Below, piece by piece: positions 57,281 through 63,744 of a DNA stretch of 64,000 nt. Both the position numbers and the translations under genes were made by a program. Origin of the DNA: Micrococcaceae bacterium Sec5.8 (GTDB lineage: Bacteria; Actinomycetota; Actinomycetes; Actinomycetales; Micrococcaceae); the NCBI GenBank assembly GCA_039636775.1, contig CP143429.1:620001-684000 (forward strand), in the 5' to 3' direction. The notes under the pieces were generated by a model. That model saw only the letters and a list, made by a program, of their open reading frames with translations, had not been told where the DNA came from and did no database searches. Positions within the stretch are counted from its first letter, which is position 1; the number at the start of each line of letters is the position of its first letter.

Positions 57281-58966
57281 CTAAGGCGTCGGCGCCGGCG
57301 TCGGTGTTGCGGCCGGCGACGCAGGCGCCGTCGCTGCAGGCGCCGTCGCTGCGGGCGCCGTGGCGGGGGACGCAGGCGCCGTCGTGGCGGACGTCGTGGC
57401 GGGCGCCGTCGCCATCAGCTTCAGCAGTTCCTCATCGCGCAGCCTGGTCCACGGCGATTCCGGGGCACCCTGCATGGCCGCCTCGGGGCTGTCCGTCTGG
57501 GTCCACCACTTTGCTTCATAAACCCGGCCTCCGAAGAGCACCCGGTCGCTCTTGCGGTAAACCTTGGCCGGTTCCCACTCCGGGGCGGTGCCGGCGGGGG
57601 CGGTGAGTTGCGGGGTGGGCTTATCGCCGGGCAGTACCGGGCCGATGATGCGCCAAGGCGTCGCGGCCCCCTGGAGTACCGGGTTGTCCGGGGCTTCGTT
57701 CCGCGTCCACCATTTAGCCTCATAGACGTTGGCGTGCCAGACGATCCGTTCGCTGGTGGTGTAGGCGGTTTCCTCATTCCAGACCGGATACGGGCTGGTG
57801 GAAGGATCATCGACGGCGGCGGCTCCCCGGGTGGCGTTGCCGGACGGCGGCGAGGCTGCCGCGCTTCCCGTGGCGTCCGGGGAAACTGCGACCCCGGCGC
57901 CCAGGATGGTGGCGAACGTGGAAGAGCCTTGCTCGATGCCGCTGCAACCGTCCGAGACCTTCTTGACGTCGGGGTAGTTGGGGCTGCAGGTCCGGTCCCG
58001 GTTCAGCGACCACATCGACAGCCGGCCCACACCCTTGGCGCTGGCATATGTGCTCAGTTCCTCCGCGTCCTTGAGCGTGAAGATCTCGCCGACGATGTCG
58101 TTCTGGCCGATCATCGGGGTCAACCCGATCTTGCGCCACACCGTTTCACTGCCCAGCTCGCTGCCGGCATCCTTGTACAGGCCGGTGACCTGCCGGTGCG
58201 TGGCTTCCGCCGCCGAGACGGCGTTCTCGTACATCGACCGGTCCATGAGCCGGCTTCCGCCGTAGTCCATGGTCATGATGTTGACCCCGCCGAGGTCGGT
58301 CCCCGACGCGATAGTCCGGCGTACCGCGTCGGTGCCCGCCGCCGTCAGCCCGTTGGGATCGGCCGGGAGCGTCAGCCACACGTCAAGGTTCTTTCCGCTT
58401 TCGCGGCGGTCCTTCTGGAGGGCGGTGACCGCCGCGGCGCGCCGGTCGAGGGAAGCGACATCGCTGAGGGCCCCGCCTTCGATGTCCAGGTCAATGCTGC
58501 TGACGTTGTACCGCTCCACTACGGCGCGGTAGGCGTCTTCAAGCTTGCCCGCATCGGTGCAGCCCGTGGCCAGCTCGTTGTTGATCAGGCCGCCGAAGGA
58601 GATGGACACTGTTCCACCCAGCTGCTGGAGGCGGGCGACCCTCCGGTCCAGGTCCAGGGCCGAACCGGCCTCGTCGAGGGAATAGGCGGCACCCCACGTC
58701 GGCGTGCACGGGTCTTTGGAGTCCGCGACGATGAAGGACAGCTGAACCTTCTGCGCTTCCTTGGATACCGGGTCTTCGAAGGCGTAGCGGGGCGTCGCTG
58801 TAACATCCACGTAACCGGAGAAGATGGACGGGATGGCCTCGGCCGCCCTGCCATCGTTGAAGTTGCCCCATGCGGCCACGCCACCGGCAGTGACGGCCAC
58901 AACAACTCCGGTGAGAACGCCCAGCCGGGCAAGCGATAATTTACGGCCTGGGAATCTTGCGGACAC
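57281..58966 (-). CDS. chitinase-like GH18 hydrolase with two CBM5/12-type modules
   Basis: A 561-residue protein: a membrane-anchor or signal helix at 10-33, a GH18 TIM barrel (about 48-370) with catalytic D159, D161 and E163 in 'SIDLDIEGG', a linker, two CBM5/12-like modules (about 395-450 and 460-515, each with 'VYEAKWWT'), and a Thr/Ala/Pro tail from about 520. The first Asp of the DGxDxDxE motif is Ser here. It should cleave beta-1,4-linked N-acetylglucosamine polymers. GTG start. Divergent from the GT2 operon, so it may trim or release the polymer made there. Confidence 0.9.
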   Translation of the reverse strand: MSARFPGRKLSLARLGVLTGVVVAVTAGGVAAWGNFNDGRAAEAIPSIFSGYVDVTATPRYAFEDPVSKEAQKVQLSFIVADSKDPCTPTWGAAYSLDEAGSALDLDRRVARLQQLGGTVSISFGGLINNELATGCTDAGKLEDAYRAVVERYNVSSIDLDIEGGALSDVASLDRRAAAVTALQKDRRESGKNLDVWLTLPADPNGLTAAGTDAVRRTIASGTDLGGVNIMTMDYGGSRLMDRSMYENAVSAAEATHRQVTGLYKDAGSELGSETVWRKIGLTPMIGQNDIVGEIFTLKDAEELSTYASAKGVGRLSMWSLNRDRTCSPNYPDVKKVSDGCSGIEQGSSTFATILGAGVAVSPDATGSAAASPPSGNATRGAAAVDDPSTSPYPVWNEETAYTTSERIVWHANVYEAKWWTRNEAPDNPVLQGAATPWRIIGPVLPGDKPTPQLTAPAGTAPEWEPAKVYRKSDRVLFGGRVYEAKWWTQTDSPEAAMQGAPESPWTRLRDEELLKLMATAPATTSATTAPASPATAPAATAPAATAPASPAATPTPAPTP

Positions 58967-59170
58967 AGGGCCCCCTAATGTCTTTTATTGTGAACTGCCG
59001 GGCACGCGCCGGCCATCGCGATCAGCTCGTGATATTCCGGAGTGTCTGATGTCCGGCAACGGTCTGACCTTGCATTATCCTAAGGGCACTCACCGAAACA
59101 TTCCGGTGCGCCGGGCGCTTTGGAACAAATGCGCACGCTCAAACAGCGAATTTGCAGTCTATGGGGACTA

Positions 59171-61516
59171 ATGTCTGATCAGCTTGTCTTGCCGCGCCCT
59201 GACGCAGAGAGCGTCTCCACCGAGGTCAAAGACGTGGTGCGCCGACGCCAGTGGGGCGCTGAGCGTCGCTCGGAGCCGCTGTCAATCGTGCACCCGCGGC
59301 CGTCCCGCCGGAAAATAATACTGGGAAGACTGGGAATTCTCACCACCCTGCTTGCGTGGGTGACCTACGTCATAACCACCATCCTTCGGGAGTTGGCGGA
59401 CAACCCAAACGCAGGTTTTAGGTTTCAATTTGAAACGGCGTCATACCTGATTGTCGTAACATTCCTGACTTTTTCGGCGTTGATGTACTTGATGGCCCGG
59501 CAGGGAGCCCTTTACCGGTTCCGGGACCATTCACGGGTACCGCGCGGGGAATTGGATCGCCACTTCGCCGAATACGACGAGGGGATCACCGTGCTGGTGC
59601 CGTCCTACGCCGAAGAGCCGCAGGTGGTCCGGGCCACGCTGTGGTCCGCCGCGCTGCAGGAATTCCCTGCCCTTAAAGTTGTGCTGCTCGTTGACGATCC
59701 GCCCAATCCCAAAGATCCCGGCGAACTCGCAAAGCTGGAAAAGACCCGTGCACTGTCGGCCGAAATTGCCGCAGCGATGGGCGTTCCGGCCGCACGCTTC
59801 AACGCCGCCCTGGCAGACGTCCGCCGGCGGTCCCAGGCAGGCCCGCTGAACGAGGCCGCTGAACTCGCATTGCTGATAACCGAGTACCAGGCCGCCGCGG
59901 ACTGGTTGGAAACCATGGCAGCCGCAGAGCAGGTGGAGGACCACGTCGACGAGTTCTTCGTGGACCTTGTCCTCATGGGCCTGGCCCGGGAACTGCGGCT
60001 CGTCCTGGTCGGCCTGAACGCTGCTCTGGCGCAGAAAACCTCGCCGTCCGCGACGCGGCGCGAGGAACTGTACCTCCGCCTGACCTGGATTTTTAACGTC
60101 ACCACCGAAACGTTTGAGCGCAAGAAGTACGCAAGCCTCTCGCACGAGGCCAACAAGGCGATGAACCTCAACGCCTACATTTCCCTGATGGGAAATTCAT
60201 GGCGCGAAGAAGCCACCGCCGACGGCGTGGTGCTGCGCAAAATCGAGGGCGACGCGGAGCTCGAAGGAACTGGCCGGGTCCTGGATTTCCCGGATACCAC
60301 CTACCTCCTGACGCTCGACGCCGATTCCCTCCTGTTGCGCGACTACTGCCTGCGCCTGGTCTATTTCCTGGAATCGGCCGGCAACGAGCAGGTCGCCGTA
60401 ACGCAGACCCCCTACTCCTCGTTCCGCGGGGCACCCACCCGGATCGAGCGCGTGGCCGGGGCAACCACCGACCTCCAGCACATCCTCCACCAGGGCATGT
60501 CCTACTACGGTGCCACTTTCTGGGTGGGTGCGAATGCCGTCATCCGTAAGCGGGCCCTCGAGGACATTGTTGAGGTGGAGTCCAACGGCGCCTTCGAAAT
60601 CCGGACCTACATCCAGGACCGCACGGTGATTGAGGATACCGAGTCCAGCATCGACCTCGGCCAGCATGGCTGGACCCTGGTGAACTACCCGGAACGCCTC
60701 AGCTACAGCGCCACGCCGCCGGACTTCGGCTCGCTCGTGGTCCAGCGCCGTCGCTGGGCCAACGGCGGGCTTCTGATCCTGCCCAAGCTGTGGGCCCAGC
60801 TCCTCCAAAACCGGTCCGACCGCCGCAAGATTCTGTTCCGGGAAGTCCTCCTGCGCGTGAACTACATGGCGTCCATCGCCTGGGCCAGCTTTGGCCTGCT
60901 GTTCCTGCTGGCATACCCCTACGACAGCCGGCTGCTGAGCCCCATCGTCTTCCTCGCCGCCCTGCCGTACTTCCTGGCCATGGGCAGCGACTTGCGGGAC
61001 TGCGGGCACCGCTTCAGTGACATCCTGCGGATCTATGGCTTCAACCTTGTGCTGCTTCCGGTGAACCTTGCCGGCGTCCTCAAGTCGTTGCAGCAGGCTG
61101 TCACCGGCGACAAAATTCCGTTCGCCCGCACCCCGAAGGTCAAGGACCGCACAGCAGCCCCGGCCATCTATGTCCTGACCCCTTACGCGATTGTTGCCTT
61201 CTCGCTGCTGACCGTCTGGCGCGACGCCCAGCTGGGGAACTGGGGCAACGTGGCCTTTGCCACGCTGAACGCCGTCCTCGCCGCTGGCGCTATCCGGGCC
61301 TACATCGGCGTTCGCAACTCGGTGGTGGATGTGTTCCTCGGTATGGTCAACTGGCTCTATATCAGTCCGCGCCCCAAGCAAGTGAAGGAGAGCCCCGTGG
61401 TGGAGAAGACGGCCGAGGAGGCCGACTGGGAGACGATCCTCTACCACGGCGACCGCCGGCTCAACCGGGACCTTCGTGGCACTACTGACCGCCGTCGTCG
61501 AATCGCCATTCGGTGA
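59171..61516 (+). CDS. cellulose-synthase-like processive GT2 glycosyltransferase
   Basis: A 781-residue protein with N-terminal helices (about 50-75 and 90-110), a GT2 core and four or more C-terminal helices (about 560-720). The synthase motifs are present: first Asp in 'LLVDDPPNP' (about 174-176), DxD in 'LTLDADSL' (382-386), TED-like 'VIEDTESS' and QxxRW as 'QRRRWANGG' (525-529). An insert of about 150 helical residues lies between the first two motifs. No PilZ domain is visible. ATG at 59171 after GGGGA. Its stop overlaps the next start by 4 nt. Confidence 0.88.
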   Translation: MSDQLVLPRPDAESVSTEVKDVVRRRQWGAERRSEPLSIVHPRPSRRKIILGRLGILTTLLAWVTYVITTILRELADNPNAGFRFQFETASYLIVVTFLTFSALMYLMARQGALYRFRDHSRVPRGELDRHFAEYDEGITVLVPSYAEEPQVVRATLWSAALQEFPALKVVLLVDDPPNPKDPGELAKLEKTRALSAEIAAAMGVPAARFNAALADVRRRSQAGPLNEAAELALLITEYQAAADWLETMAAAEQVEDHVDEFFVDLVLMGLARELRLVLVGLNAALAQKTSPSATRREELYLRLTWIFNVTTETFERKKYASLSHEANKAMNLNAYISLMGNSWREEATADGVVLRKIEGDAELEGTGRVLDFPDTTYLLTLDADSLLLRDYCLRLVYFLESAGNEQVAVTQTPYSSFRGAPTRIERVAGATTDLQHILHQGMSYYGATFWVGANAVIRKRALEDIVEVESNGAFEIRTYIQDRTVIEDTESSIDLGQHGWTLVNYPERLSYSATPPDFGSLVVQRRRWANGGLLILPKLWAQLLQNRSDRRKILFREVLLRVNYMASIAWASFGLLFLLAYPYDSRLLSPIVFLAALPYFLAMGSDLRDCGHRFSDILRIYGFNLVLLPVNLAGVLKSLQQAVTGDKIPFARTPKVKDRTAAPAIYVLTPYAIVAFSLLTVWRDAQLGNWGNVAFATLNAVLAAGAIRAYIGVRNSVVDVFLGMVNWLYISPRPKQVKESPVVEKTAEEADWETILYHGDRRLNRDLRGTTDRRRRIAIR

Positions 61517-61974
61517 GCATCGACTTTTGCGCCTTGCCCACTGGGCAAATTCCCGCGGCGCCCGGGGCCCCTGATCTGCCGGCCGCGGTGCCGGCGTCGG
61601 GGCCGGAAGCTCCCGCTCCGATCGGTGTCCGCCTGCTCGACGGCAGCATCATCGAGGTGGTGCTTCCGGGCACGGGGGACCTTGGGGGTCCCGAGGCGCG
61701 TACGGCGGGCGCCACCGTACGGACACTCGCGGCCGGCCGGCGCCTTCCGGTCCTGCTGGTCATCACGGGAGTCGAGGGCGTCAGCGTCGACGCCCGGCAT
61801 GTCTACGCCACCACCATCGCGGCGTCCGCATTTGCGCTCGTCGGCGAAAGCCCGGTGGACCGGGTGATCGCCCATTATCTGCTGCGCTCCAAGACCGAGA
61901 ATATCCCTGCGCGGTTCTTCACCTCCAAGGCGGAGGCCATCGAATGGTTAGGGCAATACTCGAGTGAAGACTGA
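61513..61974 (+). CDS. small STAS-like (DUF7793/SpoIIAA-type) protein
   Basis: A 153-residue protein. After a Pro/Ala-rich start, residues 45-150 fit a STAS/SpoIIAA-like fold: 'GVRLLDGSIIEVVLP', 'LPVLLVITGVEGVSVDARHVYATTIAASAFALVGESPVDRVIAHYLL' and 'PARFFTSKAEAIEWL'. Such domains act as anti-sigma antagonists or protein switches. GTG overlaps the GT2 stop by 4 nt; its own end overlaps the GGDEF-EAL start by 11 nt. A signalling link between the two enzymes is inferred from this position. Confidence 0.78.
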   Translation: MSIDFCALPTGQIPAAPGAPDLPAAVPASGPEAPAPIGVRLLDGSIIEVVLPGTGDLGGPEARTAGATVRTLAAGRRLPVLLVITGVEGVSVDARHVYATTIAASAFALVGESPVDRVIAHYLLRSKTENIPARFFTSKAEAIEWLGQYSSED

Positions 61975-63490
61975 TCCTCCCGACCCCCGTCTGCACGCCC
62001 TCGTCGAAGGCATCGTCCGGATCGCCGGCGGCGATTTGACCACCAGGATCGCGCCCTCCGGCGCCAGGGACGACGTCGCGGCGGTCATTGCCGGGATCAA
62101 CCTGATGGCTGATGACCTGCAGACCATTTACCAGGAACTGGAAGAACGCGTGGAAAGCCGGACGGCGATGCTGCGTGATGCCCAGGTGGAGCTGGAGCGG
62201 ATGGCCCTGACCGACCCGTTGACCCAGCTGGCCAACAGGACCGCACTGAACTCGGTCCTCAGCCACGCCCTAGCAGAGACCTCCCGGGGCGAAATGCCGC
62301 CGGCGCTGCTGGTCCTGGACCTTGACTCTTTCAAGGGCATCAACGACACGCTGGGACACAGCGCCGGCGATGACGTCCTCCGGGTGATTTCGCGGCGCCT
62401 TGAGGCGGCCGTCCGGGATACGGACACCGTCGCCCGCCTCGGCGGCGACGAATTCGCCGTCATGTTGCCGAAATCCAATTTGGTCCGGGCCCGACGGGTG
62501 GCCAACCGGATCCTGAAGGCCCTCAGCGAGAGCCTGGAGGTAGGGGACCTCCGCATCACTTGCGGGACCAGCATCGGCCTGCGAGTCGCGGAGGCCGGAC
62601 AGTCCGTCGATGACCTGGTCATGGAGGCCGACACCGCGATGTACGCTGCCAAGGCCCAGCCGCACAGCAGCATCAAAGTGTTCGAGCCAGCTTTGCTCTA
62701 TGCCCGCCGACTGCAGAGCGTCATGGTTACCGAGATGCGCGAGGCCATCCGCCAGGACCAGCTCACGCTGCACTACCAGCCGGTGGTGGACCTGGCCACC
62801 GGCCGGATTGAAGGTGTGGAAGCGCTGGTGCGCTGGAACCACCCGGAGCGGGGGCTCCTGATGCCCGATTCGTTTATCCCGCTGGCGGAAGAGACCGGGA
62901 TGATCGTGGAGCTCGGCCACTGGGTCCTGAAGCATGCGGTGCGTCAATTGCGGCACTGGCAGCAAGGGCTGGACGTGGACGCGAAGTTCAACATTCGGGT
63001 CAACATTTCTACCACCGAGCTGCAAAACCTCGACCTGATCGAGAACGTCCGCGACATTCTCCGAGAGACAGGTCTGGACGCCGCCAACCTCGTGGTGGAG
63101 TTGACGGAATCCATGGCTGTCAACGGCGGGGACGTGGACAAATACTCCCTCAGCGGCCTGCGGCGCCTGGGCGTCCAGCTGGAGATTGACGACTTCGGCA
63201 CCGGATATTCGTCCATCAGCTATTTGCGGCAGCTGCCGGTCAATGTGGTCAAAATCGACAAGAGCCTGATCGACGGGCTGGGCAGCGACGCGAAGGAGAG
63301 CGCGTTTGTGGAGGCGGTCCTGCACCTCATCCACGCCTGCGGGCTCACGGCCGTCGCCGAGGGTATCGAGACGGCGGAGCAGGCAGCTGAGCTGATCCGG
63401 TTGGGATGCTCGAGTGGCCAGGGCTACTATTTCGGCCGGCCTGTCCCGGCGGCGGAGCTTGAGGCAATGCTCCGCCGCCGCGTGCTATAG
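61964..63490 (+). CDS. bifunctional GGDEF-EAL c-di-GMP enzyme
   Basis: A 508-residue cytosolic protein. HAMP-like and coiled-coil helices (about 10-80) precede a GGDEF domain with intact GGDEF (160-164) and an inhibitory RxxD site (151-154) exactly five residues before it, then an EAL domain with 'EALVRWNHP' (286-288), 'NISTTELQ', 'ELTES', 'DDFGTGYSS', 'KIDKSL' and 'AEGIET'. All key residues look intact, so both synthesis and hydrolysis are possible. No membrane helix is seen. Last gene of the GT2 operon. Confidence 0.93.
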   Translation: MKTDPPDPRLHALVEGIVRIAGGDLTTRIAPSGARDDVAAVIAGINLMADDLQTIYQELEERVESRTAMLRDAQVELERMALTDPLTQLANRTALNSVLSHALAETSRGEMPPALLVLDLDSFKGINDTLGHSAGDDVLRVISRRLEAAVRDTDTVARLGGDEFAVMLPKSNLVRARRVANRILKALSESLEVGDLRITCGTSIGLRVAEAGQSVDDLVMEADTAMYAAKAQPHSSIKVFEPALLYARRLQSVMVTEMREAIRQDQLTLHYQPVVDLATGRIEGVEALVRWNHPERGLLMPDSFIPLAEETGMIVELGHWVLKHAVRQLRHWQQGLDVDAKFNIRVNISTTELQNLDLIENVRDILRETGLDAANLVVELTESMAVNGGDVDKYSLSGLRRLGVQLEIDDFGTGYSSISYLRQLPVNVVKIDKSLIDGLGSDAKESAFVEAVLHLIHACGLTAVAEGIETAEQAAELIRLGCSSGQGYYFGRPVPAAELEAMLRRRVL

Positions 63491-63591: not shown

Positions 63592-63744
63592 CTAGTTCTT
63601 CGGGGTGGAGTTCGGCCACCAGCCCACTGCCACGGCTGAGCCCTGGCCACCGTTTTCGCCGGAAGCAGAAATTGCCGAGGTGGCGGAAAGGCCTGCGGCT
63701 GCCAGCGCACCGGCGACGAGAAGGGCTGCGAGGGTCTTTTTCAT
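63592..63744 (-). CDS. 50-residue secreted peptide (unrecognised)
   Basis: A short gene: ATG ending at 63744 with AGGAG 6 nt upstream, stop TAG at 63592. It begins MKKTLAALLVAGALAAAGLS, a classic signal peptide; cleavage after 'SAISA' would leave about 23 residues, 'SGENGGQGSAVAVGWWPN' plus STPKN. It has a -10-like TATACT at 63796-63801 (minus strand) and a shared terminator, so it looks like a complete gene. Mature part is Gly-rich with a WW pair. Function unknown; a peptide signal or surface peptide is possible. Confidence 0.72.
   Translation of the reverse strand: MKKTLAALLVAGALAAAGLSATSAISASGENGGQGSAVAVGWWPNSTPKN

Follow-up and report, generated by a model that had tools for sequence, protein, structure and literature searches.

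The stretch of DNA analysed here (the window) comprises 64,000 nucleotides of Micrococcaceae bacterium Sec5.8 (positions 620001-684000 of contig CP143429.1, our G000:C1), whose genome is a single contig of 3.87 Mb. At the right end of the window lies a locus of four genes, in which a family 2 glycosyltransferase (GT2; 59171-61516), a small DUF7793 protein (61513-61974) and a GGDEF-EAL protein (61964-63490) are encoded on the plus strand, and a GH18 hydrolase (57281-58966) is encoded divergently from them on the minus strand. Among named relatives, Arthrobacter strains come closest in GT2 sequence (91% identity). The open reading frame (ORF) list and a reading of both junctions give an overlap of 4 nt between GT2 and DUF7793, where the start codon of the latter overlaps the stop codon of the former, and of 11 nt between DUF7793 and GGDEF-EAL. 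A first-pass annotation of this DNA had described the same reading frames, strands, overlaps and divergent GH18, all of which agree with the ORF coordinates; its interval of 59171-63490 holds for the three-gene operon and leaves the GH18 gene outside.

The GT2 protein (781 aa) is predicted to be a BcsA-like synthase. It matches Pfam Glyco_trans_2_3 (123.8 bits) and carries the motifs DD (175-176), DAD (383-385), ED (488-489), QRRRW (525-529) and a gating-loop-like FARTPK (651-656). These GT-A catalytic motifs and the modelled fold resemble those of BcsA, and BcsA, CesA and hyaluronan synthases ranked highest in the structure comparisons; the chitin synthase 8k3v appeared only low in the Foldseek list, which is evidence neither way. 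Within the cellulose-synthase superfamily, GT2 falls below every named NCBIfam equivalog cut-off, scoring 70.2 bits against CelA (TIGR03030, cut-off 699.1), 45.1 bits against the PgaC/IcaA synthase of poly-N-acetylglucosamine (PNAG; TIGR03937, cut-off 422.3) and 15.2 bits against the NodC chitooligosaccharide synthase (TIGR04242, cut-off 550). In the AlphaFold2 model a helical insert (residues 183-308; 59717-60094, plus strand) separates the first Asp motif of the GT-A domain from DxD, and a basic C-terminal tail starting at ADWETILYHGDRRLNRDLRG (61421-61513, plus strand), modelled with low confidence, is probably cytosolic. The tail motif GDRRLxRD was found in 61 of 81 GT2s (from the first 84 loci, scoring over 600 bits), namely in 60 of the 64 with a divergent GH18 and in none of the 15 with a downstream GH18. 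A likeness of this tail to the cyclic di-GMP (c-di-GMP) motif of BldD was considered and dropped, as the resemblance is too weak. Pfam detects no PilZ domain in GT2, and a search of the 3.87-Mb genome gave no PilZ match at an expectation value (E) ≤ 1; the idea of a PilZ protein encoded elsewhere in it was dropped on this result. The cellulose-synthase-like GT2 without PilZ of the first-pass annotation is in this way supported by Pfam, by the model and by the genome-wide search.

The GH18 protein (561 aa) appears to be a chitinase-like hydrolase with CBM5/12 modules (43.6 bits in Pfam), an N-terminal hydrophobic segment, which is probably a membrane anchor or signal, and a catalytic DLDIE at residues 159-163. 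Its Pfam score for GH18 (PF00704) is 22.3 bits, under the cut-off of 29.6; phmmer matches it to a solved chitinase at E 2.7e-49, chitinases are its nearest solved relatives, and it carries the GH18 chitinase motif. Both the catalytic DxDxE and the hydrophobic segment are kept in 125/125 GH18 relatives, counted after rows below 500 bits and duplicates had been dropped.

Relatives of GT2 at E ≤ 1e-60 were present in 16 of 394 genomes of a class sample and 73 of 395 genomes of a family sample. The family yielded 76 matches, of which 71 were fetched, as 70 loci, and neighbourhoods were read for these, for 14 loci from other families of the class sample and for 80 named loci (80 of 578 confirmed matches, among the matches listed). 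GH18 adjoins GT2 in 66/70 family loci, 13/14 other class loci and 78/80 named loci (among the matches listed), and in 124 of the 130 non-redundant actinobacterial loci that were left of 164 once identical GT2 stretches had been removed. Within the family the divergent arrangement prevails; GH18 lies downstream on the same strand in 7/70 family loci and 8/14 others. A phylum sample gave a GT2 match in 7/296 genomes, five of them outside the class; GH18 stands beside GT2 in three of these five, and one of the two misses is near a contig end. Moreover, in one locus (L042) GT2 and GH18 form one reading frame. A protein search with this fusion returned GT2 followed by GH18, with D-x-D-x-E-G, in 120/120 of the best 120 of 4355 proteins, 116 of them with a hydrophobic segment between the two domains. 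Carriers include Microbispora, Actinoallomurus and Streptosporangiaceae (among the matches listed), and being drawn from the best 120 of 4355 these proteins show that the fusion is widespread, without giving its frequency.

The conserved core of the locus is GT2 plus GH18. When neighbours in the 130 loci were clustered with a simple gene caller and the 28 commonest clusters named by eye, GH18 occurred in 99 loci, GGDEF-EAL in 50 and DUF7793 in 20, followed by a LytTR response regulator in 17; no further gene was added to the core, since after GH18 and GGDEF-EAL the clusters fall to 20 and 17 of 130. Hidden Markov model (HMM) searches place DUF7793 in 41/130 loci, and HMM counts are preferred over gene-caller clusters since many small genes escaped the caller. 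Two records stand apart. In a distant actinobacterium (L310:7689-9707) the GT2 match is split across two overlapping frames, the second of which ends in a stretch weakly similar to EAL (52 bits), and a record titled Vibrio cholerae strain 35D (WNZI01000005.1, L169) holds an Arthrobacter-type locus with 75% GT2 identity and is probably a mislabelled or contaminated assembly.

The DUF7793 protein (153 aa; PF25056, 54.1 bits, cut-off 26) models as a STAS fold. A profile search matches it (E 1.9e-33) to a solved member of the family, 3bl4 (arth_0117 of Arthrobacter sp. FB24), titled as a protein of unknown function. A conserved GESPVDRV occupies residues 111-118, and Ser91 starts helix alpha-2 in the model; in 38 GT2-linked relatives this position holds S/T in 25, D/E in eight and K/A in five. 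Four neighbouring genes scanned with Pfam (DUF6314, DUF998, one of no family and an inositol monophosphatase) include no SiaB-type kinase or SiaA-type phosphatase. Genome-wide, no clear RsbW/SpoIIE-type partner was found, the single SpoIIE match being sub-threshold (21.9 bits, cut-off 25) and all nine HATPase_c_2 matches lying in open frames of at least 446 aa. These results weaken a classical RsbV/RsbW/RsbU phospho-switch; an unconventional kinase is possible.

The GGDEF-EAL protein (508 aa) comprises a HAMP-like stalk (29.6 bits, cut-off 25) followed by GGDEF (144.5 bits) and EAL (257.4 bits) domains. Motif reading in the window shows GGDEF, RxxD (151-154) and EAL to be intact, as first annotated. 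It has no N-terminal membrane helix, hydrophobicity over stretches of 19 residues peaking within the EAL domain (residue 447). The HAMP-like segment (residues 9-53; 61988-62122, plus strand) starts a stalk that by sequence continues as a coiled coil, and would be the part bound by DUF7793. Of 53 distinct relatives above 400 bits, 44 are GT2-linked, and among these RxxD is kept in 44/44, GGDEF or GGEEF in 43/44 and the acidic and Lys positions of the EAL domain in 44/44; the EAL letters read E-x-L with another middle residue in 13/44. Elsewhere in the genome, three consecutive EAL-domain matches (L006-L008) are encoded on the minus strand (G000:C1:898930-903918).

Directly downstream of GT2, the 70 family loci carry GGDEF-EAL in 36, DUF7793 in 33 and both in 31, and the pair is in that place in 0/14 class-sample loci outside the family. 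It is kept there in Arthrobacter, Paeniglutamicibacter and Specibacter. On a GT2 tree (FastTree, unrooted, with long-branch warnings; 128 rows after removal of two short ones) the GGDEF-EAL label needs six changes and is confined to one clade of 84 rows, most of them Arthrobacter-like and a few from Cryobacterium and Homoserinimonas. Other placements occur: in two Glutamicibacter loci (L121, L132) the pair is found on the far side of GH18, GGDEF-EAL leading, and Agromyces, Leifsonia and Microterricola have a distant kind of GGDEF-EAL at this position. In L117, L118 and L188 a DUF7793 gene that resembles the unpaired type follows GT2, with no GGDEF-EAL directly downstream.

The pair also occurs away from the synthase. 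DUF7793 matched 19/61 family genomes at E ≤ 1e-5 (44 matches), numbers that are a lower bound because the cut-off excludes some divergent copies linked to GT2, for instance in Paeniglutamicibacter. Forty GT2-free matches were all read, as 39 loci, and in 14 of these GGDEF-EAL directly follows DUF7793 on the same strand (one of the 14, L255, has its upstream side cut by a contig end). With 10 EAL matches in 3.87 Mb, chance adjacency to DUF7793 should be rare. The source genome itself has a second pair at 3471506-3473443 (L046, G000:C1:3466598-3473443), again with a HAMP-like and coiled-coil N-terminus, preceded by an RbsD-family gene, transporter-like genes and a DeoC-family aldolase (RbsD and DeoC by Pfam); these neighbours suggest sugar-linked contexts for such pairs. 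A lone DUF7793 in L145:6998-12345 stands beside an RpiR-type SIS regulator and genes that by eye are nagB-, murQ- and anmK-like. On a quick IQ-TREE of GGDEF-EAL (unrooted, with long-branch warnings) the GT2-free pairs sit among the GT2-linked ones and four linkage changes are needed, three of them forced by starred branches, so that its link to the synthase locus was gained or lost on more than one occasion.

DUF7793 plus GGDEF-EAL is thus a two-gene module of its own, separate from GT2 plus GH18. The first-pass annotation had taken the three-gene operon as the system. Its arrangement recurs in dozens of relatives, so the lack of joint conservation that it had named as fatal to its idea was not found, and the 31 of 70 family loci speak for co-location; as one indivisible system the operon was rejected, since the pair occurs alone and GT2 plus GH18 occurs without it.

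In the divergent promoter region, an alignment of 11 close relatives shows a conserved block, TTGCATTATCCTAAGGGCACTC (59070-59091, plus strand), which is perhaps a promoter or operator; TAAGGGCA is present in 24 of 103 intergenic regions. Convergent with the operon end, a 50-aa ORF (63592-63744, minus strand) has a signal-peptide-like start.

We interpret the locus as a minimal synthase-dependent exopolysaccharide system whose product probably contains N-acetylglucosamine (GlcNAc) and is chitin-like, in which a chitinase is anchored to the membrane and, for Micrococcaceae, c-di-GMP provides an input like that of SiaC and SiaD, a reading that we hold to be evenly poised between right and wrong. 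GT2 would draw on a UDP-sugar, in the likeliest case UDP-GlcNAc, to build a chitin-like chain, which it would thread through its own membrane channel. At the outer membrane face GH18, fused to GT2 in other actinobacteria, may cut, trim or release the emerging chain while its CBM5/12 modules hold it. The c-di-GMP module would have joined the operon in Micrococcaceae, where DUF7793 may bind the HAMP/coiled-coil stalk of the soluble GGDEF-EAL protein and tip, one way or the other, the balance between making and breaking c-di-GMP, in a way similar to the action of SiaC on the SiaD stalk. Because no PilZ is present, either the altered c-di-GMP level or the DUF7793/GGDEF-EAL complex itself could gate GT2 on its cytosolic side, possibly through the basic tail.

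The nature of the polymer can be argued differently. BcsA and plant CesA are nearest to GT2 in sequence and model, and CBM5/12 modules can bind cellulose too, so the product might be cellulose or another glucan, with GH18 acting on something else or changed in specificity. We consider this unlikely in view of the chitinase-type DxDxE in 125/125 GH18s and of the tight linkage and fusion of GH18 with GT2; inspection by eye of the 28 commonest neighbour clusters also revealed no cellulase. A PNAG-like beta-1,6-GlcNAc polymer, with GH18 in the role of the PgaB hydrolase domain, seems very improbable: PgaC is the second-best NCBIfam match of GT2 (45 bits) and the PgaB domain is distantly related to GH18, but GT2 remains far under the PgaC cut-off of 422 bits, and no deacetylase was noticed by eye among the same clusters. 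Of the chitin-like or PNAG-like polymer first proposed, the GlcNAc type probably stands, and the chitin-like form is favoured over the PNAG-like one because the nearest solved relatives of GH18 are chitinases.

As for regulation, the DUF7793-GGDEF-EAL pair may merely be co-transcribed with GT2 and tune the general c-di-GMP pool, with no action on the synthase. Though we lean against this possibility, it deserves some weight: 14 of the 39 GT2-free DUF7793 loci have the pair, about half of the family GT2 loci lack a GGDEF-EAL directly downstream, and GT2 shows no known c-di-GMP domain (Pfam; PilZ search). Against it stand the retention of the pair directly 3' of GT2 in several genera, the more than one linkage change on the GGDEF-EAL tree (of either direction), the Glutamicibacter pair, placed elsewhere yet beside the locus, and the distant GGDEF-EAL beyond GH18 in Agromyces, Leifsonia and Microterricola. 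It is quite unlikely, in our judgement, that DUF7793 is instead an effector on GT2 that the GGDEF-EAL stalk merely sequesters; STAS proteins often act by partner switching and the DUF7793 start codon overlaps the GT2 stop codon, but DUF7793 is paired with GGDEF-EAL in the absence of GT2, and 89/130 GT2 loci have no detected DUF7793 directly downstream.

Polymeric chitin is regarded as a eukaryotic product, bacteria being known for the chito-oligosaccharides of NodC. A bolder version of the GlcNAc reading, which we advance only tentatively and think rather doubtful, is that true chitin or a close GlcNAc polymer is secreted by an actinobacterial synthase-chitinase machine, fused in some lineages and, in Arthrobacter and its kin, under PilZ-free c-di-GMP control through DUF7793 on the GGDEF-EAL stalk. 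If so, a widespread bacterial synthase accompanied by, or fused to, its own chitinase would add a source of GlcNAc polymer that is new and would offer a model of chain shaping by a hydrolase during secretion, the locus would provide a concrete candidate for a c-di-GMP output in a PilZ-free genome, and DUF7793, a solved fold without a function, would gain a testable job. Literature searches on such a system, on GT2-GH18 and on DUF7793 found no description, subscription papers lying mostly outside them, so that a report elsewhere is possible; a term search of PMC7112194 gave neither GH18 nor chitin.

SiaC and HsbA are STAS-like proteins, and the cellulose hydrolase BcsZ belongs to GH8. By NCBIfam scores, the system is set apart from the Bcs, PNAG and NodC families. 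It resembles Bcs in its BcsA-like membrane GT2 with DxD, ED, QxxRW and a gating-loop-like F-x-R-T-P-K, its partner hydrolase and the c-di-GMP enzymes nearby, and differs in having no PilZ in protein or genome, in the insert at 183-308 and in GH18 in place of the GH8 of Bcs. With PNAG systems (PgaC/PgaB, IcaA/IcaB) it shares a membrane GT2 with a hydrolase partner and, as proposed here, GlcNAc chemistry, but neither the PgaC score (45 vs 422) nor a recurrent deacetylase noticed by eye. The clostridial Ccs operon likewise links a Gram-positive synthase to a hydrolase outside the BcsZ family, the GH5 enzyme CcsZ, but has another hydrolase family and accessory genes and a cellulose-type product (PMC7710045). 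The first-pass annotation knew of no such system with a STAS-like switch and overlooked two pairs: SiaC binds the N-terminal helical stalk of SiaD in Pseudomonas aeruginosa (PMC8457831), and HsbA-HsbD is reportedly a small protein encoded with a diguanylate cyclase (PMC5085249). The module described here is alike in that DUF7793, STAS-like in its model, is encoded next to a cyclase with an N-terminal helical stalk predicted from its sequence. It is unlike SiaC-SiaD in that DUF7793 is not of the SiaC family, the enzyme is GGDEF-EAL rather than GGDEF alone, no SiaA/SiaB-type genes were seen beside the module, and the module here lies in a synthase operon. Taken together, the locus would act in the manner of synthase-dependent exopolysaccharide systems that have a hydrolase of their own, with a regulatory input resembling SiaC-SiaD.

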